NCBI GenBank assembly: GCA_039930045.1
Contig: JBDSQB010000005.1
Span: forward strand, 62,001 to 126,000
DNA length: 64,000 nucleotides
Source: Chthoniobacterales bacterium
Lineage (GTDB): Bacteria > Verrucomicrobiota > Verrucomicrobiia > Chthoniobacterales > DASVRZ01
Reading direction: 5' to 3'
Shown here: one piece after another, positions 50,759 through 61,514 of the stretch
How positions within the stretch are numbered: the first letter of the stretch is position 1
Layout: each line of letters opens with the position of its first letter
Notes under the pieces: model-generated
Told to the model about the DNA's origin: nothing
What the model saw: only the letters and a program-made list of their open reading frames with translations
Databases searched by the model: none
Translations under genes and position numbers: made by a program

Positions 50759-52375
50759 TCATTGTACGGGAACTGGGATCACGCGTACACCGTCGGCGAC
50801 GACATATCCGTTGGTTCCATTGGTGCGAAACTTCACTTCGGCGTTGGCGGGAGCGAGGGTGTAGGTGCCGAGAAGGTTCCAGCTGTTGCTATTAGTCTGC
50901 TGATTGACGGTCACTGTGGACACTGAGCCATTCGAGGTAACGATATCGACCGGCACGTTAGTCGCGCGATTGATTTCGGCCGGCCAACGGGCGTAAACCA
51001 GATAGCTGTCAGTCGCGGGCAGGGCAGGCTTGAAGGAGAAGCTCTTGGTGCCTTTGCCGGTGTTGCCGTCGTGAACGTAGTTGGTGCCCAGATAGCCTGG
51101 AGTACCGGTGGAGGGCGACCAGGTGCCGACGATGGTCACGGCGGCATCGGTGTTGTCCACGGTGGTCCCGACGGCTGGTAGCAGGCTCACAGCATCGGCA
51201 ATCACATAGCCATTGGTGCCGGTGGTGCGAATTGTAATTTCGGCAGTGGCGGCGGAAAAGTTATAGTAGCCGAGGAGATTCCAAGTAGAGCCGTTGAGTT
51301 GCTGATTAACGGTGACAGTCGAGGTGCCGGAGGTGGTGACGATGTCGATGGGAACATTGGTCGCGCGATTGGGAGTGGCCACCCAGCGGGCGAAGACGAG
51401 GCAATCGCCGTCCGCCGGTAGCGTCGGCAGGAAGGCGAAGGACTTGGTGCCTTTATCGATGTTATTATCGTGGTGATAATTCGTGCCGTAGTAACCAGGC
51501 GAGGCGGTGGAGGCGAACCAACTACCAGTGAGGAAGACATCGGCGGTTTGGGCGTTGTCCACCGTTATCGCTTCGGGATCGAGTACGGACTTGATGGCGT
51601 TAAAATATACCGTGGCGAGATGTTCTTCACCGACAAGATTGGGATGAATGCCGTCGTAGCGGGCGTTGGCCGGCAGGTTGGAGTTAATATCTGCCAGCAC
51701 GACCCGCGAGGCGGGCGTGTTTTTCGAAGTGACTACGCCGGAGATCGCGGTGTTGAAGCTGGCGCAGGCCGTCTCGTGATTGATGAATACCATGATGTTG
51801 GACAGGATGATTGTGATGTTAGCATTCGATGCCCGGAGCTTGTCGATGACGCTATTTAGCTGCGAGGTATAAGTGGCAGTGGAGATATTGTTCGCGTCGT
51901 TTGTGCCGATATTCAGGACAACTAGATCCGGTTTGTCGGTGGCGGACAAGCCGGCCAGCCAGGTATTAATGTTCTGGTCTAAATAGAGAGTGGTCTTTCC
52001 CCAGTGACCTTCGTGATCGCGATCAAAAGTCGTCGAGTAGTTCGGATAATTCGCCGCGCTTGGCGTTGGGGTAGTCGGGCTGGTGACGTTGAGGGAACCG
52101 ACCATGTTCACCGCGTAGCCAGCATTCTTAAGTTTGAAATAAAGGGCGTAGCGGTAGGACGCATAATAAGTGCTGCCGATACTGCTTTTCCCACCTTGCG
52201 TGATGGAGTCGCCCAGCGGCATGATATTGATAGCCGCCTGCGCGGGGTCGGCGCAAAGAATGGCGAAGATGAAGCCGAATAAAGCCACGATCGATCGGAT
52301 AAATGCAGGTTGAAACGCGGTGAGACGTGGCAATGATTGTTGATCTAGGTTCATAGTCTTGGGGGGTAGGTTCAT
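50759..52375 (-). CDS. Exported SGNH hydrolase with two golvesin-like C-terminal domains
   Basis: 538 residues; a start at 52354 is also possible. A signal peptide ends near PAQA. The SGNH/GDSL esterase domain (about 48-265) has the nucleophile S57 in PLGDSITQGG, block III LVVLNIGTNDANN and block V YDGIHPNLVGEEH. Two similar modules of about 125 residues follow, each with VDN, GxxGTNYxHDxNxxKGTKSF, NRATNVPxDIV, TVNQQ, W(N)LLG and GTNGYVxADxV. These match the golvesin C-terminal/xanthan-lyase-type binding domain. It probably deacetylates or de-esterifies an extracellular polysaccharide to which the C-terminal modules bind. Almost the same parts recur in the adjacent larger gene. Confidence 0.82.
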   Translation of the reverse strand: MNLPPKTMNLDQQSLPRLTAFQPAFIRSIVALFGFIFAILCADPAQAAINIMPLGDSITQGGKSSIGSTYYASYRYALYFKLKNAGYAVNMVGSLNVTSPTTPTPSAANYPNYSTTFDRDHEGHWGKTTLYLDQNINTWLAGLSATDKPDLVVLNIGTNDANNISTATYTSQLNSVIDKLRASNANITIILSNIMVFINHETACASFNTAISGVVTSKNTPASRVVLADINSNLPANARYDGIHPNLVGEEHLATVYFNAIKSVLDPEAITVDNAQTADVFLTGSWFASTASPGYYGTNYHHDNNIDKGTKSFAFLPTLPADGDCLVFARWVATPNRATNVPIDIVTTSGTSTVTVNQQLNGSTWNLLGYYNFSAATAEITIRTTGTNGYVIADAVSLLPAVGTTVDNTDAAVTIVGTWSPSTGTPGYLGTNYVHDGNTGKGTKSFSFKPALPATDSYLVYARWPAEINRATNVPVDIVTSNGSVSTVTVNQQTNSNSWNLLGTYTLAPANAEVKFRTNGTNGYVVADGVRVIPVPVQ

Positions 52376-52432: not shown

Positions 52433-55400
52433 TCATCGGCTTATTTTCAGGCGTAGAAACCGTCGCGTTGCTTGGGTGGGGGGTAATGAATCACGCACTT
52501 CCACGTTTTTGAGAGTGCCTGCGCCCGGCGTTTCGCTTGTGAGCGTGTCGGTCACCAGCGGCGTAAGCGCTGCGCCATTCGTGCCGGAAGCGATGTCGAT
52601 CCAAGAATTGGGCATGTCCAGCGTGCTTGTTGCCTGCACCGTATAGATCAGATCGTAGAGGTTCGTGTCGCGTTGAAAGCTCAAAGTCAGCCGCCCCGCA
52701 TTTGTGCTGACGCGTGGCAATACCGAGGCATCGGGATTGAGTGGGTCACCGCCAAGGCCATATTCGAAAATATTCATCACACCGTCGCCATCTGGATCAG
52801 TGAGGTCACTGCTGATCGAGGGATCGTTCATTTCCGTTAGGCTGAAGAATTGTGCTCGCCACGACCCAAAGGGGCTGGAATACATCACAGCGGGAATCGG
52901 GATCACGCGCACACCGTCTGCGATGACGTAACCGTTGGTGCCCGCGGTGCGGAACTTCACTTCGGCGTTGGCGGGGGCAAGCGTGTAGGTGCCGAGGAGA
53001 TTCCAAGTATTACTGTTTGTCTGCTGATTGACGGTCACCGTCTTTACCGCCCCGCTGGAAGTGACGATATCCACCGGCACGTTGGTCGCGCGATTGATTT
53101 CAGCAGGCCAGCGGGCGTAAACCCGATAGTTGCCGATCGCGGACAAGACGGGCTTGAAGGAGAAGCTCTTGGTGCCTTTGCCAGTGTTGCCGTCGTGAAC
53201 GTAGTTGCTGCCAAGATAGCCGGGAGTTCCGGTGGAAGACGACCATGTGCCGACGATTGTCACGGGCGCATCGGTGTTGTCCACGGCAAAGCCGGAAACA
53301 TGGACGAGGCTGACCGCGTCAGCGACCACATAGCCATTGGTGCCGGTAGTGCGAATCGTAACGGAAGCGGTGGAGGCGGAAAACGTATAGCAGCCGAGAA
53401 GATTCCAAGCAGAGCCGTTGAGTTGCTGGTTGACCGTGACGGTAGAGGTCCCGGAGGCGGTAACGATGTCGATCGGCACGTTAGTTGCGCGATTAGGCGC
53501 AGCTACCCAGTGTGCATAGACGTAGTAATCACCATCCGACGGAAGTGTCGGAGTGAATGTGGCACCCTTTGTCCCCTTGCCGGTATTATTGTCGTGGATA
53601 TAGCTGTTTAGGTAGGCGTCAGGGTTGGTGCTCGAGTTCCAAGCTCCCGTGAATGTGACGCCGCTCGCGTCTGCGTTGTCCTTGATCAGCGTCAGGTCGG
53701 AAGCGGTTACCAGCTCCGTGGAATTCCACGAGGAGCCGGTGTCGTTCTTAGCCGTAATGAGATAATAATAAATCGTGCCAGCGACGACGGTCGAGTCGGT
53801 GTAGCTGCATGTCACCGGGCTGGCCAAGGTCGTGTAAGGGCCGCCGCTTCGGGTGGCGCGTTTTACCTCAAACCGGGTCGTGCCCACGGGGAAGTTCCAG
53901 GTCAGTGAGACCAGCCCGGGAGTGGGCGTGGCACTCAGGGCGAAATTAACAGGGCCCAAGACCGGCGGCTCCATTCGGAAGGGCAGGACGGGCAGCGGTT
54001 GGCTCTCGGCATTAAAGAGATTGCCGGTGAATAGATTGCTCATTGCATAGCGCACATAGAGCGGGGCAGGCACCGATGTGCTGGCCACTCGGATCGAGGA
54101 CGACGACTCCAGCACCGTTGTAGTGGCTGGGTAATACACTCCATCGCTACCGGCGACTTCGAGCCCGGTGGGAGCGGCGTTGCCGGTGGTAGTCAGGGCG
54201 GCGGAGCCCTTCATATCGAAGGAGACGCGAAGCACTCCGGGCGAAGCCAACTCGACGCCGAGCGGCGCGGGGCCTTCGGAGACCAGACCTGTTGCGCCGT
54301 CGAACTTCGCCCGGACAAGCGTGGCAAGACGCCGACCCAGCTCGACCTTCGTGCGCGGGTGCAATTCCCGATCGGCGTCGCCGAGATCCGTCAGACTGGA
54401 ACCCAAGTCGATGGAGCCGAGGACGGCGGTGGAGGGCTCTTGCAGAGTAGTAGTCTGGGCATCGCGCAGCCACGGCCAGTAGATCGGTTCGCCAGTATGA
54501 GCGAAGCCGGGCAATTGCACAGTAACCCACGGGCGGGCGGTACCACCCCAGAGTGTGCGCCAGCTCTGGATAAGGAGTCGCTGGGTGATCGGATAAGTGA
54601 GCACACCGGCCGCGTTGGCGTTGCTCTCGCCTTGATACCAAAGGAAGCCGCGGAGAGCGAAACGACGCAGCGGATAGATCATGCCGTTGTAGCAGACAGC
54701 GGGCTGACGCTGGCGTGTGCCCTGCACGTCGGGAGCGTTGGCGGGATCAGCCGCGATGACGGCAGCGCGCGCGGCGAGGTCGGGGCGCGAGGCCTGCGTT
54801 TCGGCGCTTAACCACGATTCGATCAGAGTCGAGCCCCAGGCGGCCTTGATGATGCCGATCGGCACGCCCGGGTTGGCGGCGCGATAGCTTCGCGCGAAGA
54901 AAAACCCAGATGCTGTGAATCCATCTACGGCGGGGACGGCGGTGCTTTGCCACTGGTTGCCCGTTTCGTCTGCGCGGTCGCCGAGCGTCTCCTGTGGCGC
55001 GGCGTTGTAGAGATGCTCGACGGAAAAATGCCGGATGAGGTCGTCGGTGGCGGGGTTAAGAGCAGTGAAGGCCGTGTTCGCGTTATTTTCCTTCACTGTC
55101 AGATCCATGTTGGACTGGCCACTGCACAGCCAGACATCGCCTACGAGCACGTTGTCATGGGTAATCGTTTGCGTGCCGCTCGCGATGGAGAGCACAAAGG
55201 GACCTCCAAAGGTGTTGACCGCCGGCAAGGTGACGATCCATTGGCCGGTGCCGTTGACTTGCCCGGTGCCGGAGGTGAGCGTGGTCGCTCCATTGCGGAG
55301 AGCCACTGTCACGGTCGCTCCCGGGGCACCGGTGCCCCAGACATTAATCGGCTGCGAGCGCTGCAAAACCATGTTTGGGCCGAAAATTTTGTCGACCGTA

Positions 55401-56176
55401 AACGAAAACGCCGGACCGAGCAGGGACTGGATGGCGGCGAAATATACGGTCGCGAGATGCTCCTCGCCCACCAGATTAGGATGGATGCCGTCGTAGCGCG
55501 CGTTGGTCGGCAGGTTGGTGTTGATGTCCGCCAACACGATGGGCGATGCGGCTGTGCTGAGTGAAGGTGCGAGTTGCGCGAGCGCCGCGTTGAAATCGAT
55601 GCACGCTGTCTCGTGGTTGAGGAACACCATGATGTTCGAAAGGACGATTTTCACGGACGGGTTGGCGGCCCGTAGTTTGGCGATGACGCTGGTCAGCTGC
55701 GAGATAAAGGTGGAAGTAGGGATGTTGTTGGCGTCGTTGGTGCCGATGTTCAGAACGACTAAATCCGGTTTGTCGGCGGCGGGCAGGCCAGCCAGCCAGG
55801 TGGTGATGTTTGAATTCGGGTTCGAATTCAAATAGGCGGTGGTTTTGCCGAAATGTCCCTCGTGGTCGCGGTCGAAACTGGTGGCGTAGAGCGGATAATT
55901 CGTCGCGCTTGGCGTCGGGGTGGTCGGGCTGGTGACGTTGAGGGAACCGACCATGTTCACGGCGTAGCCGGCGCTCTGGAGTTTGAAATAAAGCGCGTAG
56001 CGGTAGGACGCGTAATAGACACTGCCGATGCCGCTTTTTCCACCTTGGGTAATTGAGTCGCCCAACGGCATAATATTGATAGCTGCCTGCGCTGGCGCTG
56101 GGACGAGAACGGCTAAAAGGAGGCCAAACAGAGCCGCTAGAGATCGAATGAACGCGGGCGTCAGGGGGCGCAACAT
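52433..56176 (-). CDS. Giant exported double-esterase: SGNH + SASA + FN3 + two golvesin-like domains
   Basis: 1247 residues. Signal peptide to about A31. SGNH domain (32-253) with S41 in PLGDSITQGG and H232 in YDGIHPN. A second, sialate O-acetylesterase-type domain (about 258-740) has S355 in CSGQSNMD, FLWYQGESNANAAG and H606 in DRELHPRTKVELG. FN3 (about 746-822), two golvesin-like modules (832-958 and 965-1094), and a C-terminal 150 residues with a DPDGDG calcium-type loop follow. Both esterase active sites look complete. The first half-gene is a near copy of the 538-residue neighbour. It is probably a cell-surface or secreted enzyme that removes ester groups from complex glycans. Confidence 0.85.
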   Translation of the reverse strand: MLRPLTPAFIRSLAALFGLLLAVLVPAPAQAAINIMPLGDSITQGGKSGIGSVYYASYRYALYFKLQSAGYAVNMVGSLNVTSPTTPTPSATNYPLYATSFDRDHEGHFGKTTAYLNSNPNSNITTWLAGLPAADKPDLVVLNIGTNDANNIPTSTFISQLTSVIAKLRAANPSVKIVLSNIMVFLNHETACIDFNAALAQLAPSLSTAASPIVLADINTNLPTNARYDGIHPNLVGEEHLATVYFAAIQSLLGPAFSFTVDKIFGPNMVLQRSQPINVWGTGAPGATVTVALRNGATTLTSGTGQVNGTGQWIVTLPAVNTFGGPFVLSIASGTQTITHDNVLVGDVWLCSGQSNMDLTVKENNANTAFTALNPATDDLIRHFSVEHLYNAAPQETLGDRADETGNQWQSTAVPAVDGFTASGFFFARSYRAANPGVPIGIIKAAWGSTLIESWLSAETQASRPDLAARAAVIAADPANAPDVQGTRQRQPAVCYNGMIYPLRRFALRGFLWYQGESNANAAGVLTYPITQRLLIQSWRTLWGGTARPWVTVQLPGFAHTGEPIYWPWLRDAQTTTLQEPSTAVLGSIDLGSSLTDLGDADRELHPRTKVELGRRLATLVRAKFDGATGLVSEGPAPLGVELASPGVLRVSFDMKGSAALTTTGNAAPTGLEVAGSDGVYYPATTTVLESSSSIRVASTSVPAPLYVRYAMSNLFTGNLFNAESQPLPVLPFRMEPPVLGPVNFALSATPTPGLVSLTWNFPVGTTRFEVKRATRSGGPYTTLASPVTCSYTDSTVVAGTIYYYLITAKNDTGSSWNSTELVTASDLTLIKDNADASGVTFTGAWNSSTNPDAYLNSYIHDNNTGKGTKGATFTPTLPSDGDYYVYAHWVAAPNRATNVPIDIVTASGTSTVTVNQQLNGSAWNLLGCYTFSASTASVTIRTTGTNGYVVADAVSLVHVSGFAVDNTDAPVTIVGTWSSSTGTPGYLGSNYVHDGNTGKGTKSFSFKPVLSAIGNYRVYARWPAEINRATNVPVDIVTSSGAVKTVTVNQQTNSNTWNLLGTYTLAPANAEVKFRTAGTNGYVIADGVRVIPIPAVMYSSPFGSWRAQFFSLTEMNDPSISSDLTDPDGDGVMNIFEYGLGGDPLNPDASVLPRVSTNAGRLTLSFQRDTNLYDLIYTVQATSTLDMPNSWIDIASGTNGAALTPLVTDTLTSETPGAGTLKNVEVRDSLPPTQATRRFLRLKISR

Positions 56177-56214: not shown

Positions 56215-57999
56215 CTAGGCCTTTTTTCTCCTAAAGTAGAAAGATGCGGCAATGCCCGAACAAAAAATGCCCATGATCACAGTGGATGGCTCGGGAACCA
56301 CAGCCACATAAATATCTCCCGCTTGGGCTCCAAAACTTACCCCATCGCCCACAAAGAGGGTGCCGGTCAATCCAGCGCCGAGGTTCGTCACAGTGAGTCC
56401 GCTAGTAATTTCTCGCCCGGATGCTCCACCCAAGACCAGACCCTGCCAAGTGTCTGCAGCTTCGGTAGAAGTCGCTAACCCATCGAAGAGCCGATAGACA
56501 CCCGCAGCACCGGTGCCTAGGAAGTTAATCGCATTACCGTTGAAGGCCACATCATCAACCGCAGAGTTGCTAATCACCAAAAGATCGCTGGCTCCGGGTA
56601 TCAGGAACGTTCCGGCCGCACCGAGGGCGAACAGAAAGTCTGAGCCGGAAGCCATTGAGAGAATGTTAGCAGCCGTGCTCCCTCCACTATCTAGCGTCAG
56701 AGTGCCGATGCCAGCCCCCGGAGTGCCTGCGACAACTCCCGGAGCGAGGTGACCGCCGCTGGATACTGAGACAAATTGCTGGGTAGATCCGAGAACAGTC
56801 GGCCGAATTTGACCGGTGCCGCCGAGCGTCGCTCCGACCGTAATACTCCCGGTGCCTGTCGCTGAATTGGTACCACTTACCGCAGTGTTAGCCTCCAACG
56901 TGCCTGCGTTGATGAAGGTTCCGCCGGAGTAGGTATTGACGCCGCTTAATTTAACCACGCCGTTACCGACTTTCTTAATGAACTGATTGGTGTTCCCCGC
57001 TGAGCTGGAGATCACGTTGGTGAACGACACAGTGCCTCCAGAGGCGGAGGTGAGATTTAGACCGTTGTTCGCAGCCCCAATATTCGCGAGGTTAACGGTG
57101 CCGGAGTAAATCGAGGTCCCGGTCGTTTGTGAGCCTCCCACGGTGTATGAGCTGTTTGCACCAGCGTTGAAAGCGATGTTGGCAGGGGTCGAGAAGGCTC
57201 CGGTGGTGAACAGGCTTGCCTGAGTACTCACAGCACTACTACCCAAAGTTATATTCTGGCCACCCAAGGCTCCATTGTTGGCAATCTCAAGCGTTCCACC
57301 CCTCCAAACTGTAGTCGCTGAAAATGCATTGCTCCCCTCGAGTCTCAAAGTGCCGGTGTAAGGCGTAGTTGATGATTCAAGTTTGACGACAGCGAACCCG
57401 GACCCTGAGGCAATGCTGCCCGTGACAGTCATGCTACCGGTGCCCTGAATGGAAAGCACATCCGTAGTGGCACCAGTTCCGTTGGTCGTGTTTACACTAC
57501 TGACGACAACAGGGGTGCTATTGGTAAGCGTCAACAAAGGACCCGTGGCATTAAGACTAATGCCTCCATTTAAATTCAAAACAGTCGTGCCGTTGTTAAT
57601 GGTGCGCGCACTACTTGAAGAAAAAACAATTCGGGGAGCGATGTTGGTTGTCCCGCCGCCCGTCGTGATGATCGAAGTATCAATGGTAAAGACGGAAGAG
57701 GTCGCTGTGGTTATATTATAGTCGGCTTGGCTGTTGTCGATGTTAAGCGTCGCGATCTGAATATTGACATCTAGATTGGGATTCACGGCGGTGGCGACCG
57801 CCGCGAGGGTCGCATTGTCACCACCTGCGGATCCTGGATAGGGGGAAGCGCTCCAATTAGCATTGGTGTTCCAGTCAGAACCGGTGTTTAGCCAAGTGCC
57901 GGTAGCTGCCTGGGCCAGCGGAGAAAATGCGGTGATGAAAAGCCCGAGGCTGAGGGCGACGCATTTGGCGAGGGACGAGGTGGAATATTTGTTTTTCAT
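56215..57999 (-). CDS. PEP-CTERM surface protein with autotransporter-type beta-strand repeats, copy A
   Basis: 594 residues from ATG at 57999; a longer in-frame start adds 46 residues lying in the conserved leader region and is rejected. Signal peptide (MKNKYSTSSLAKCVALSLGL.. cut near AQA). The body is a Thr/Ser/Gly/Asn-rich beta-helix with the repeat hallmark KVGNGVVKLSGVNTYSGGTF and GTLEAN, as in autotransporter-associated beta-strand repeats. The C-terminus is a PEP-CTERM tail: VPEPSTVIMGIFCSGIAASF then YFRRKKA. Probably an exported surface or matrix protein. It is a paralogue, equally long, of the gene at 58486. No Shine-Dalgarno sequence is visible. Confidence 0.87.
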   Translation of the reverse strand: MKNKYSTSSLAKCVALSLGLFITAFSPLAQAATGTWLNTGSDWNTNANWSASPYPGSAGGDNATLAAVATAVNPNLDVNIQIATLNIDNSQADYNITTATSSVFTIDTSIITTGGGTTNIAPRIVFSSSSARTINNGTTVLNLNGGISLNATGPLLTLTNSTPVVVSSVNTTNGTGATTDVLSIQGTGSMTVTGSIASGSGFAVVKLESSTTPYTGTLRLEGSNAFSATTVWRGGTLEIANNGALGGQNITLGSSAVSTQASLFTTGAFSTPANIAFNAGANSSYTVGGSQTTGTSIYSGTVNLANIGAANNGLNLTSASGGTVSFTNVISSSAGNTNQFIKKVGNGVVKLSGVNTYSGGTFINAGTLEANTAVSGTNSATGTGSITVGATLGGTGQIRPTVLGSTQQFVSVSSGGHLAPGVVAGTPGAGIGTLTLDSGGSTAANILSMASGSDFLFALGAAGTFLIPGASDLLVISNSAVDDVAFNGNAINFLGTGAAGVYRLFDGLATSTEAADTWQGLVLGGASGREITSGLTVTNLGAGLTGTLFVGDGVSFGAQAGDIYVAVVPEPSTVIMGIFCSGIAASFYFRRKKA

Positions 58000-58121
58000 A
58001 GGGAGGGAAGACAAAGCGGATAAGTATTGAGGCTTGGGTTCAGATGAAACTGAGCCAGTTTCCATCGACGCTGCGGCAGAAGTTGATCTAGGGAACGAAT
58101 GTGTAACGACCATAGCAACCG

Positions 58122-58190
58122 CTTGGTTGGCAACCAAGAGATGGAGGTATCCCTATTTCGACATTGTATGATCTGTTTTTAAACATCCAG
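58122..58190 (-). promoter_or_regulatory. Conserved promoter/leader of copy A
   Basis: On the minus strand, AGATCATACAATGTCGAA (58157-58174) is identical over 18 bases to the copy in front of the other 594-residue gene, and the flanks are similar. TACAAT fits a -10 box. Downstream lies ACCTCCAT and a perfect inverted repeat, CTTGGTTG/CAACCAAG around one base (58122-58138), which would form a hairpin in the 5' leader. Confidence 0.55.
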
Positions 58191-58431
58191 GAAGCTCAAC
58201 GGAGTGAAGTAAACCTAAAATCCAAGAAGGACTTTCGACTTTGGAGAACTTGTTAACATTCCTGGGACGAAGAGGATAAACACAGTCTGCGCGGATTAGA
58301 GCGCGCGCATTGTGTCGTCAGAATCCAACCGTAGCTTACGGTGCCAAAAGACTTCCCTTCATCACTGCTAAAGCGACAGTTATAACAACCGCTACAATTC
58401 CATAGTTCCAGTTGGTTAGTAGCCGTCTAAA

Positions 58432-58463
58432 GAAAAGCGCCTCCCCACGCGAATGGAGAAGCG
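58432..58463 (-). terminator. Terminator of the copy B gene
   Basis: On the minus strand CGCTTCTCC (58463-58455) pairs with GGGGAGGCG (58446-58438), with two G-T pairs, around an 8-base loop, and is followed by CTTTTCT. It lies 23 bases after the stop of the gene ending at 58486. Confidence 0.75.
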
Positions 58464-58485
58464 TTTTCGATTTAGCCTTTATGTT

Positions 58486-60270
58486 TTAGAGGCTGCGACG
58501 GCGGGCGCGCTGCACGCCGATTAAAATCCCGAATCCGCCGATTATCATCGCATAGGTGGATGGCTCGGGGACCGCAACGACATTGAGATAAATATCTCCA
58601 GCTTGAGTTCCAAAACTTCCCCCATCGCCCACAAAGAGGGTGCCGGTCAATCCCGCAGCGAGATTCGTCACAGTAAGTCCGCTAGTGATTTGACGAGTGG
58701 ATACTCCACCCAGAGTCAAACCCGCCCAAGTATCTGAAGCTTCAGTAGAAGTCGCTAGCCCATCGAAGAGCCGATAGACACCCACCGCTCCAGTGCCTAG
58801 GAAATCAATCGCGTTCCCATTGAAAGCCACATCGCTAGCCGCAGAGTTGCTAATCACTAGAAGATCGTTGGTTCCATCTACTGCAAACGTTCCGGCAACA
58901 CCGAGGGCAAACTGAAAGTCTGAGCCGGAAGCCATTGAGAGAATGTTAGTAGCCGTGCTCCCTCCACTATCTAGCGTCAGAGTGCCGATGCCAGCCCCCG
59001 GAGTGCCCGCGACAACTCCAGGAGCGAGATGACCGCCGTTCGATACCGAGACAAATTGCTGATTCACGCCTAGAACACCTGGCCGAATCTGGCCAGTGCC
59101 GCCGAGCGTCCCCCCAATGAAAACCGTTACATTCCCCGTGCCTGTCGACGAGTTAGTGCCGCCTACTACAGTATTAGCCTCCAACGTGCCTGCATTGATG
59201 AGGGTCCCGCCGCCGTAGGTATTTACGCCGCTTAACTTGACCACGCCGTTACCAATTTTCGTGATGAAGTGAGCGGAATTTGCCAGGCTGGATATCACGT
59301 TGGTGAACGATACTGTGCCTCCAGTGGCGGCGGTGACATTTAGACCGTTGTTCACAGCTTGAAGAGCCGTGAGGTTAACGGTGCCGGAGTAAGTCGATGT
59401 CCCGCTTGTCTGCGAACCTCCAAGAGTAAATGAAGTGTTTGCACCGCTGAAAGTGATGTTGGCAGGGGTCGAGAAGGCTCCAGTTGTGAGCAGGCTTGCC
59501 TGAGTACTTACAGCGCTACTACCCACAGTTATATTTTGGCCACCCAAGGCTCCATTGTTGGCAACCTCGATCGTTCCACCCCTCCACAATGTAGTCGTCG
59601 AAAATGTATTGCTCCCCTCGAGTCTCAGAGTGCCGGTGTAACCCGCAATTGGTACAGCAAGACTGATGGTATTGAACCCAGCCCCTGGGGCAATGCTGCC
59701 CGTGACCGTCATGCTGCCGGTGCCCTGAATGGAAAGGACATCGTCCGCTCCGGGGCCGTTGCCCGTGGTTATACTACTCACGACAATAGGCGTGCTATTG
59801 GTGAGCGTCACCACAGGCCCTTGGCCAATAAGACTAATGCCACCATTCAAGTTTAGAGTAGTCGTACCGTTGTTAATTGTACGTGCACCAGATCCAAAAA
59901 GGATTTGGGGAGCGATGTTGGTCGTCCCGCCGCCAGTCGTGACGATCGAAGTGGCAATGGTAAAGACGGAGGAGGTCGCCGTGGTAATATCATAATCGGC
60001 CTGGGTGTTATCGATGTTAAGTGTATTGATCAAAATACTAACATCGAGATTGGGATTCACGGCGGTGGCGGCCGAAGGGAGCGTAGCAGTCTCACCACCA
60101 GCGGTTCCAGGATAGCTGGCACCACTCCAATTCGCATTGGTGTTCCAGTCAGAACCTATATTGAGCCAATTGCCGGTAGCTGCCTGCGCCAGCGGAGAAA
60201 ATGCTGTGATGGAAAGCCCGAGGCTGATGGCGACGCATTTGGCAAGGTCCAAGGTGGAATTATTTTTCAT
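58486..60270 (-). CDS. PEP-CTERM surface protein with autotransporter-type beta-strand repeats, copy B
   Basis: 594 residues. A signal peptide from MKNNSTLDLAKCVAISLGLS ends near PLAQA. The repeat-rich beta-helix body carries KIGNGVVKLSGVNTYGGGTL and GTLEANTVVGG. The body is very similar to copy A along its whole length, and both are exactly 594 residues. The C-terminal sorting tail differs: VPEPSTYAMIIGGFGILIGV then QRARRRSL, so the anchors have diverged or been exchanged while the bodies stayed alike. It is divergent from an AraC-type regulator gene, which is the obvious candidate controller. The role is structural or adhesive by inference; no enzymatic motif is seen. Confidence 0.87.
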   Translation of the reverse strand: MKNNSTLDLAKCVAISLGLSITAFSPLAQAATGNWLNIGSDWNTNANWSGASYPGTAGGETATLPSAATAVNPNLDVSILINTLNIDNTQADYDITTATSSVFTIATSIVTTGGGTTNIAPQILFGSGARTINNGTTTLNLNGGISLIGQGPVVTLTNSTPIVVSSITTGNGPGADDVLSIQGTGSMTVTGSIAPGAGFNTISLAVPIAGYTGTLRLEGSNTFSTTTLWRGGTIEVANNGALGGQNITVGSSAVSTQASLLTTGAFSTPANITFSGANTSFTLGGSQTSGTSTYSGTVNLTALQAVNNGLNVTAATGGTVSFTNVISSLANSAHFITKIGNGVVKLSGVNTYGGGTLINAGTLEANTVVGGTNSSTGTGNVTVFIGGTLGGTGQIRPGVLGVNQQFVSVSNGGHLAPGVVAGTPGAGIGTLTLDSGGSTATNILSMASGSDFQFALGVAGTFAVDGTNDLLVISNSAASDVAFNGNAIDFLGTGAVGVYRLFDGLATSTEASDTWAGLTLGGVSTRQITSGLTVTNLAAGLTGTLFVGDGGSFGTQAGDIYLNVVAVPEPSTYAMIIGGFGILIGVQRARRRSL

Positions 60271-60317
60271 AAGGGGGAAACGGGGGGAAGTGGTTAATGT
60301 GTACGATCAATAGCGAC

Positions 60318-60385
60318 CTTTTGTTTGAAAACAAGGTATGGAGGTTTCCTATCTTCGACATTGTATGATCTCTTTTTCTACATTC
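60318..60385 (-). promoter_or_regulatory. Conserved promoter/leader of copy B
   Basis: Minus-strand AGATCATACAATGTCGAA (60354-60371) matches the element before copy A exactly, again followed by ACCTCCAT and an inverted repeat (TTGTTT, 2 bases, AAACAA at 60321-60334). The inverted repeat keeps its position but not its sequence, which suggests that structure or a divergent operator matters. Confidence 0.55.
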
Positions 60386-60566
60386 TCGAAACTCAAGGGC
60401 GGCAAATCACTAGATCCGATGGGCAATTGGGCCTAAAAGAACTGCAAAGGAGTGCGCACCTAATGGACGCCAAATTTCCAAAAATTCTCCAAAGCCGCAC
60501 GCAATCCAGTTTGCGGATTATGTCGACATCAGATAACCAAAAGGGTAAGTTTGTCGCACCCCCCCC

Positions 60567-61514
60567 ATGAATTCGTTTCGCCCCCCCGATTATTCTACCC
60601 CTGCTCTGCGTTGGAGCTGCCTCCGCACAGATATACTCTGGATCTACGACGGCCCTGTGGCGGCAGAGTCATTATACGTAGCAGCAGATCATCGTTTTGC
60701 GGAATGGGTCTGGCTCATTAGAGCTGGCAGCGTGAGTTTGAAGATGGGCAACCAGACCACTGTCGCTCACGCCAATCAATGGCTGGTGTCTCCCCATGGC
60801 TCGACGCTTCAAGAATTTTCTTCCGATGCCCACATCCTCTCTGTTCATTTCCGATGCCAATGGCCTTCCGGAGAGAATTTGTTCACGGAAAACAATGCGG
60901 TCGTCCTTGATGCCGAGAAGTTTCCTCGTCTGGAGAGAAGCGCTTACCGATTGGAAAGGCTGGTTCGCAAACACTTTCCCGGGGTACGCCTGGAGTTTCT
61001 TCAGCAGACGACGGAATATCCGGTGTTTCTGAAAATCCAGCAAAGATTCCTGCAATGGATGATCGATTATTACGATGCCATGTCACACGAAGGGAAGATT
61101 CTTTCTCGTGCGGGTGGGGGAGATGAACGTCTTTGGCGCGCTGCAGAATGCCTGCACACCGTGCCTCTCGACAGCTCGTTTCCCGCCGCTCATCTCCAGC
61201 GCGAGACCTCGTTGGGAAGAGCCCAACTGGATCGTCTATTCCTCAAGGAATTCAACACCACACCCTACGAATACTGGGAACAATTGAGGCACGAATCAGC
61301 GGTCAGGAGCCTCGAGGCAACGACCATGTCCATTAAGGAAATCGGCTATCGGCTGGGATTCAAACAACCCTCCCACTTTACCAAATGGTTTTCCCGACGC
61401 ATGGGGTCCGCACCGCAAGATTATCGCCTGCACGCAGCAAAATCGCCTCACCATAAAATAGAGACCAGACCTCCAGCCTTTCTCGTCGAGAAATTTCCAA
61501 AAATACCTGTTTAG
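60567..61514 (+). CDS. AraC-family transcription regulator
   Basis: 315 residues, ATG at 60567 after a C-run. The N-terminal half is a cupin-like sensing domain (DHRFAEWVWLIRAGSVSLKMG, ANQWLVSPHGSTLQEF). The C-terminal 100 residues hold two helix-turn-helix units: FPAAHLQRETSLGRAQLDRLFLKEFNTTPYEYW and MSIKEIGYRLGFKQPSHFTKWFSRRMGSAPQDYR, the AraC signature. Such proteins usually activate transport or degradation genes in response to a sugar. It is divergent from the copy B surface protein, whose promoter element recurs before copy A, so it may control both. A DNA-binding site cannot be assigned. Confidence 0.92.
   Translation: MNSFRPPDYSTPALRWSCLRTDILWIYDGPVAAESLYVAADHRFAEWVWLIRAGSVSLKMGNQTTVAHANQWLVSPHGSTLQEFSSDAHILSVHFRCQWPSGENLFTENNAVVLDAEKFPRLERSAYRLERLVRKHFPGVRLEFLQQTTEYPVFLKIQQRFLQWMIDYYDAMSHEGKILSRAGGGDERLWRAAECLHTVPLDSSFPAAHLQRETSLGRAQLDRLFLKEFNTTPYEYWEQLRHESAVRSLEATTMSIKEIGYRLGFKQPSHFTKWFSRRMGSAPQDYRLHAAKSPHHKIETRPPAFLVEKFPKIPV

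Follow-up and report, generated by a model that had tools for sequence, protein, structure and literature searches.

Tandem PEP-CTERM paralogues with shared promoter, leader and body and unrelated sorting tails: probable tail replacement at the PEP codons in a Chthoniobacterales genome

Introduction

PEP-CTERM is a protein module of about 24 amino acids that has undergone paralogous expansion within lineages, and in Proteobacteria a sigma-54 promoter motif is found upstream of PEP-CTERM genes, as described in the main text of Haft et al. (2006; PMC1569441). That main text makes no mention of recombination, gene conversion or transposons, so that a junction in the DNA at the PEP codons is not described there in those words. 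Likewise, the literature covered here on PEP-CTERM in connection with gene conversion, tandem duplication, domain shuffling, recombination or mosaics, which lies mostly outside the subscription journals, yielded no account of tail exchange at these codons. The modularity of PEP-CTERM is already known at the protein level, and the DNA-level junction described below is an added detail. As regards translation initiation, the table on Shine–Dalgarno (SD) sequences in a 2024 study gives a value of 10 for Spartobacteria, a class of Verrucomicrobiota (PMC10783764).

Here, we focus on two tandem PEP-CTERM genes, termed A and B (the twins), both on the minus strand of a window of 64,000 nucleotides, this being the whole stretch of DNA analysed. 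The surrounding genome comprises 3.52 Mb in 23 contigs, and its family has no other member in the compared genome set. An earlier note on this DNA had dwelt on the promoters and leaders of the twins as well as on their proteins. In regulatory terms there is nothing remarkable about the twins; it is their tails that are of interest.

The twin genes and their proteins

Table 1. Features of the twin locus (positions in the window).
Feature	Position	Strand	Remarks
Gene B	58486..60270	-	594 aa: signal peptide, PATR beta-strand repeats and PEP-CTERM tail
Gene A	56215..57999	-	594 aa; paralogue of B, 80% aa identity in body; PATR and PEP-CTERM
Sorting tail of B, PEP codons to stop	58486..58569	-	unrelated to A tail beyond the first 14 nt
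Sorting tail of A, PEP codons to stop	56215..56295	-	no DNA relative past the PEP word in the tail comparison
Promoter/leader block of B, common to A	60296..60412	-	60296-60399 in a narrower delimitation; 18-mer 60354-60371; inverted repeat 60321-60334
Promoter/leader block of A, common to B	58098..58215	-	58098-58202 in a narrower delimitation; 18-mer 58157-58174; inverted repeat 58122-58138
Terminator-like hairpin directly 3' of B	58438..58463	-	pattern match only
AraC-type regulator gene	60567..61514	+	divergent from B; HTH_18, 70.8 bits

Both genes begin with an ATG, at 57999 in A and at 60270 in B. The frame of A is open further, up to a TTG at 58137 (640 amino acids), and the ATG was chosen as its start because it is homologous to the start of B. 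The twins had been described as equally long paralogues, and they are: each open reading frame (ORF) has 594 residues, and the alignment of the bodies bears out their shared ancestry. The equality of length is partly a coincidence, since the alignment contains compensating gaps. Two esterase-like genes with golvesin-type domains follow on the same strand 38 nt after A. Terminator-like sites such as the one 3' of B are fewer in the window than in shuffled sequence, hence there is no enrichment.

Judged by eye from the translations, each protein has an N-terminal signal peptide and a C-terminal hydrophobic stretch with a basic end. The PATR repeat (PF12951) scores 40.3 bits in A and 30.4 bits in B against a curated Pfam cut-off of 27, and in both twins the curated TIGR02601 cut-off is exceeded as well. 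At the C-terminus, PEP-CTERM (PF07589) reaches 25.8 bits in A and 23.4 bits in B (cut-off 20.7); for TIGR02595, B scores 15 against a cut-off of 16 and A is absent from the matches listed. No autotransporter barrel domain was matched in the twins by Pfam or NCBIfam. A structure model built on an alignment of two sequences is mostly beta, at a mean pLDDT of only 38.3. Exosortases are represented by four matches over the PF09721 cut-off at three loci of this genome, one of which is split over two frames.

Body and tail of the twins

The bodies of A and B are 80% identical in amino acids over 558 codons, with a dS of 0.41 and a dN of 0.13, and about 69% identity is kept at their synonymous sites (pS 0.31). 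In the last 31 aligned codons amino acid identity is 42% and pS is 0.70. The DNA similarity of the two genes forms one block of 82.4% identity over 1741 bp, which ends 14 nt into the Pro-Glu-Pro-Ser-Thr codons. Past the PEP codons, DNA comparison finds nothing alignable between A and B, either in the tail or in the 3' flank. Tail identity is 0.344 against a shuffle mean of 0.364–0.366 (P=0.76–0.78, offsets up to 15 nt), and these offsets rule out a frameshift as the source of the difference. Where similar bodies and clearly different tails had been claimed, the contrast is sharper still, since homology of the tails could not be detected.

PEP-CTERM tails are not known to be constrained in more than hydrophobicity and charge, and weakly constrained tails might simply have drifted apart after duplication. 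Such ordinary divergence has some precedent in an orthologue pair from two related genomes (G085_C2:3401543 and G087_C1:339075), the tail of which is more divergent than both flanks. For the twins we hold it to be very improbable: with some 69% of body synonymous sites identical, tails derived from one ancestor ought to be alignable even if under no constraint, and tails at shuffle level are not explained by drift alone. From these comparisons, the A and B tails are most likely not of common origin.

We favour, as the probable course of events, a duplication followed by the replacement of one sorting tail. One PEP-CTERM surface-protein gene would have been duplicated together with its promoter and leader, and in one copy the C-terminal tail, comprising the transmembrane helix and the basic end, would have given way to the tail of a different PEP-CTERM gene, by a recombination event in or close to the Pro-Glu-Pro-Ser-Thr codons. 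The PEP-Ser-Thr codons, a short DNA word in most such genes, could have been used as a microhomology junction without disrupting the sorting signal. Export of both proteins, recognition of their PEP motif by a resident exosortase and display at the surface would all be retained; with three exosortase loci in the genome, one twin may have changed its sorting partner. Among the PEP-CTERM genes examined, none could be recognised as the donor of either tail, and past the PEP word the A tail matched none of the other tails in the DNA comparison. The coding bodies also contain a 57-nt identical run (P=0.0036), which may be the trace of a later gene conversion.

A separate swap would be dispensable if the duplication breakpoint itself had fallen at the PEP codons, a unit from promoter to PEP being inserted upstream of a resident PEP-CTERM tail. 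The similarity indeed forms a single stretch that starts at the promoter and ends at the PEP codons, the flanks being unrelated on either side, and the same-strand genes shortly after A are consistent with a resident 3' end. This route, with which the data agree as they do with a later swap, requires the same PEP-codon junction, and we regard it as rather unlikely, if worth serious consideration.

Mosaic PEP-CTERM genes

The probable tail replacement at the PEP codons has counterparts among the other PEP-CTERM genes of this genome, which holds 25 matches, 22 of them over the cut-off. Genes C10:71754 and C9:150655 have 80 bp of DNA in common at 90% identity, between -8 and +71 as counted from PEP, while the 60 nt ahead of PEP are at chance (27%) and the last 400 amino acids of the bodies give short weak matches only. 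Past PEP-Ser-Thr, identical codons encode 13 of the 20 identical residues, against a background of 389/1254 (P=0.0018), which argues that the two genes share tail DNA beyond amino acid likeness. The pair is the mirror image of the twins, with closely similar tails on unrelated bodies. The same tail-only pattern joins C17:156523 to C9:150655 (72%, -7 to +70), and the body similarity between C10:71754 and C17:98689 breaks off at +18. On contig C17, another tandem pair of PEP-CTERM genes matches at 85% for 724 nt, after which the two genes differ, so that mosaic structure extends beyond tails too. The word CCCGAGCC opens 16 of the 25 PEP segments in this genome and is plausible as microhomology.

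A search of the class at E<=1e-25 returned 2 of 384 genomes, namely this one and G442, in which the similarity (42% over residues 224–564) is accompanied by a third kind of tail. A peptide-pattern scan of genome contigs gave 61 stretches, of which none was a relative.

These patterns invite a wider reading, which we offer tentatively and with some doubt: sorting tails may be exchangeable DNA cassettes, swapped at PEP-Ser-Thr microhomology between unrelated surface proteins and possibly re-assigning them between the three exosortase loci. If true, tail swapping at the PEP codons explains how a short domain spreads to many unrelated bodies per genome. It would also provide a countable DNA signature in any PEP-CTERM-rich genome, in which body homology ends, or tail homology starts, at PEP.

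Orthologue tails in related genomes

How often tails part from their bodies was gauged in two related genomes from a single genus, G085 and G087. The PEP-CTERM genes compared were those listed, 62 of 100 matches in G085 and 59 of 96 in G087. Among them were 33 reciprocal-best body pairs, of which six with a body identity below 60% in amino acids were left out, leaving 27; tail homology was assessed as ungapped identity against shuffles. Tails were homologous in 26 of these 27 orthologue pairs among the matches listed (identity 0.64–1.00, P<0.01 each) at body identities of 62–98%, which further argues against ordinary divergence as the source of the twins' tails. Tail and body DNA diverged alike across the orthologue pairs (Wilcoxon P=0.41). 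From both results it follows that tails normally travel with their bodies and that exchange is rare.

The one pair with non-homologous tails, G085 C2:1346355 and G087 C13:335731, has bodies 89% identical in amino acids and a tail identity of 0.45 (P=0.097). As in the twins, the likeness of its DNA ends at the PEP codons; its 3' flank differs as well, and the pair may represent a wider rearrangement. On this evidence the twins are an exception of a rare but recurring kind. A counter-example is provided by a tandem PEP-CTERM pair in G085 that is alike through body and tail, from -940 to +156 around PEP. Tail-only matches in G085 could partly reflect a common amino acid constraint.

Promoter, leader and regulator

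The twins can also be read in regulatory terms, as carrying a conserved promoter and a structurally constrained leader hairpin that sets mRNA stability or translation, perhaps together with the AraC protein. We consider this decidedly unlikely. It draws on the 18-mer AGATCATACAATGTCGAA, which the earlier note had placed in both promoters and which is exact at both sites, with a chance expectation in the window of 0.04 at up to three mismatches. As a run of identity it is mildly unusual (P=0.034), less so than the 57-nt run within the body. The promoter/leader blocks as wholes, 83/117 identical (71%), have diverged to about the extent that the twins' synonymous sites would lead one to expect (P=0.33), which tells against the special conservation that had been claimed for them. 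The likeness of promoter and leader looks mainly due to descent from the duplication.

A search for further copies of the 18-mer before other PEP-CTERM genes had been suggested; its two matches genome-wide, at up to three mismatches, are both at the twins. A PEP-CTERM promoter regulon was rejected, as TACAATGTCGAA occurs in the 300 nt upstream only at the twins among the 21 of 25 genes with an assignable start (C23:52434, C6:24618, C9:150655 and C2:333599 were left out). Nor does the motif recur across the order, where a longer pattern built on the 18-mer is found in one of 213 genomes, namely this one. Searches of other genomes by blastn gave matches of 14–31 nt at E>=0.02, and the one exact match seen when species genomes were scanned lies in an unrelated Lokiarchaeota MAG, at about the estimated chance level.

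The promoters of the twins have no good -35 hexamer, a lack compatible with an activator, and the AraC gene is divergent from one twin, as the earlier note had reported. Against a role for its product, no upstream repeats typical of AraC half-sites were found. For sigma-54, no -24/-12 site lies upstream of A or B at up to two mismatches, and the total in the window is at chance.

The leader inverted repeats are present where they had been described, with 8-bp arms and a 1-nt loop in A and with A-T-rich 6-bp arms and a 2-nt loop in B. As drawn, the B repeat would scarcely form a stable RNA stem, because of its short loop and its A-T richness. Shuffled leaders contain an inverted repeat of at least 6 bp in 5% of cases, and random mutation of the leaders leaves one in place in 3%; its preservation at the same place despite sequence changes (P ~0.03, calculated after the fact) is a point in favour of the regulatory reading. 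On the other side, the leaders fold no better than shuffles (z-scores -0.85, -0.15, 0.03 and 0.01), and Rfam 15 gives no match at gathering score and, at E<=10, one irrelevant match of 15.1 bits, inside B. The structural or compensatory constraint proposed for the hairpin thus finds no excess fold stability behind it, and two sequences cannot show covariation.

The lack of an SD sequence, which had been taken to lend weight to the hairpin, holds for both A and B and is nothing special, as it is genome-wide. Core SD tetramers at -20 to -5 precede 25 of 346 gene starts here (first ATG of long ORFs), compared with 37 and 40 for two control windows lying upstream; the absence of enrichment over 346 starts indicates that the lack of SD is general in this genome. 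The same script gives 16/37 in Escherichia coli against 0 and 3 in the control windows, and thus the first-ATG rule is good enough to detect SD sites. In G085 the counts are 23, 23 and 23 of 151 starts. A search for the anti-SD in this genome, in which the 16S gene runs off the contig end, gave no clean match.

Comparison with known systems

The twins resemble the PEP-CTERM/exosortase system in the order of their parts, namely a signal peptide, a body, the PEP motif, a hydrophobic stretch and a basic end, and in their genomic setting, with many copies per genome and exosortases present. They differ from the PEP-CTERM genes of Proteobacteria, as these are described in the main text of PMC1569441, in that the sigma-54 motif is not found upstream of them. 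The genome, which presumably belongs to Spartobacteria, is like the SD-scarce lineages in the table of PMC10783764 in showing no SD enrichment. In their bodies, the twins resemble the PATR, or autotransporter-associated beta-strand repeat, proteins (PF12951, TIGR02601), both scoring over the cut-offs. Unlike autotransporters, they are without a matched barrel, and anchoring would instead be via the PEP-CTERM tail.

Sequences upstream of gene starts

Shine-Dalgarno enrichment is absent genome-wide in the Chthoniobacterales genome, as judged from 346 starts in the window and at the loci L081-L100, and it is likewise absent from the related genome G085. Among those 346 starts, core Shine-Dalgarno tetramers become rarer close to the start, with 25 at positions -20 to -5 against 37 and 40 further upstream. 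The 20 nt 5′ of the ATG have a pyrimidine fraction of 0.64 in PEP-CTERM genes (n = 21), compared with a background of 0.555 (P = 0.004), and the two highest values of the 21, 0.95 and 0.90, belong to the tandem twins A and B.

Features in the window and elsewhere in the genome
Feature	Location	Strand
Pyrimidine-rich 20 nt before ATG of B, extreme of set	60271-60290	
Pyrimidine-rich 20 nt before ATG of A, extreme of set	58000-58019	
Esterase-like gene, smaller	50759-52375	-
Esterase-like gene, larger, adjoining	52433-56176	-
Exosortase gene in two frames (L250, L251)	contig C2, 142528-143311	
Second tandem PEP-CTERM pair (L076)	contig C17, 97386-98760	

Duplicated genes and exosortases

The coding sequences of A and B are 80% identical when aligned, and contain a 57-nt run without differences (approximately columns 1278-1335; P = 0.0036), where gene conversion may have taken place between the two copies. 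In the second tandem pair, DNA identity is 85% over 724 nt of the 5′ half, beyond which bodies and tails differ. The split exosortase gene may be a pseudogene, or the split may come from an error in sequencing; the two other exosortases of this genome are both intact. Both esterase-like genes begin with GDSL and finish with a golvesin-type end, the larger additionally carrying a SASA esterase domain, and they look as if they were another local duplication with domain gain.
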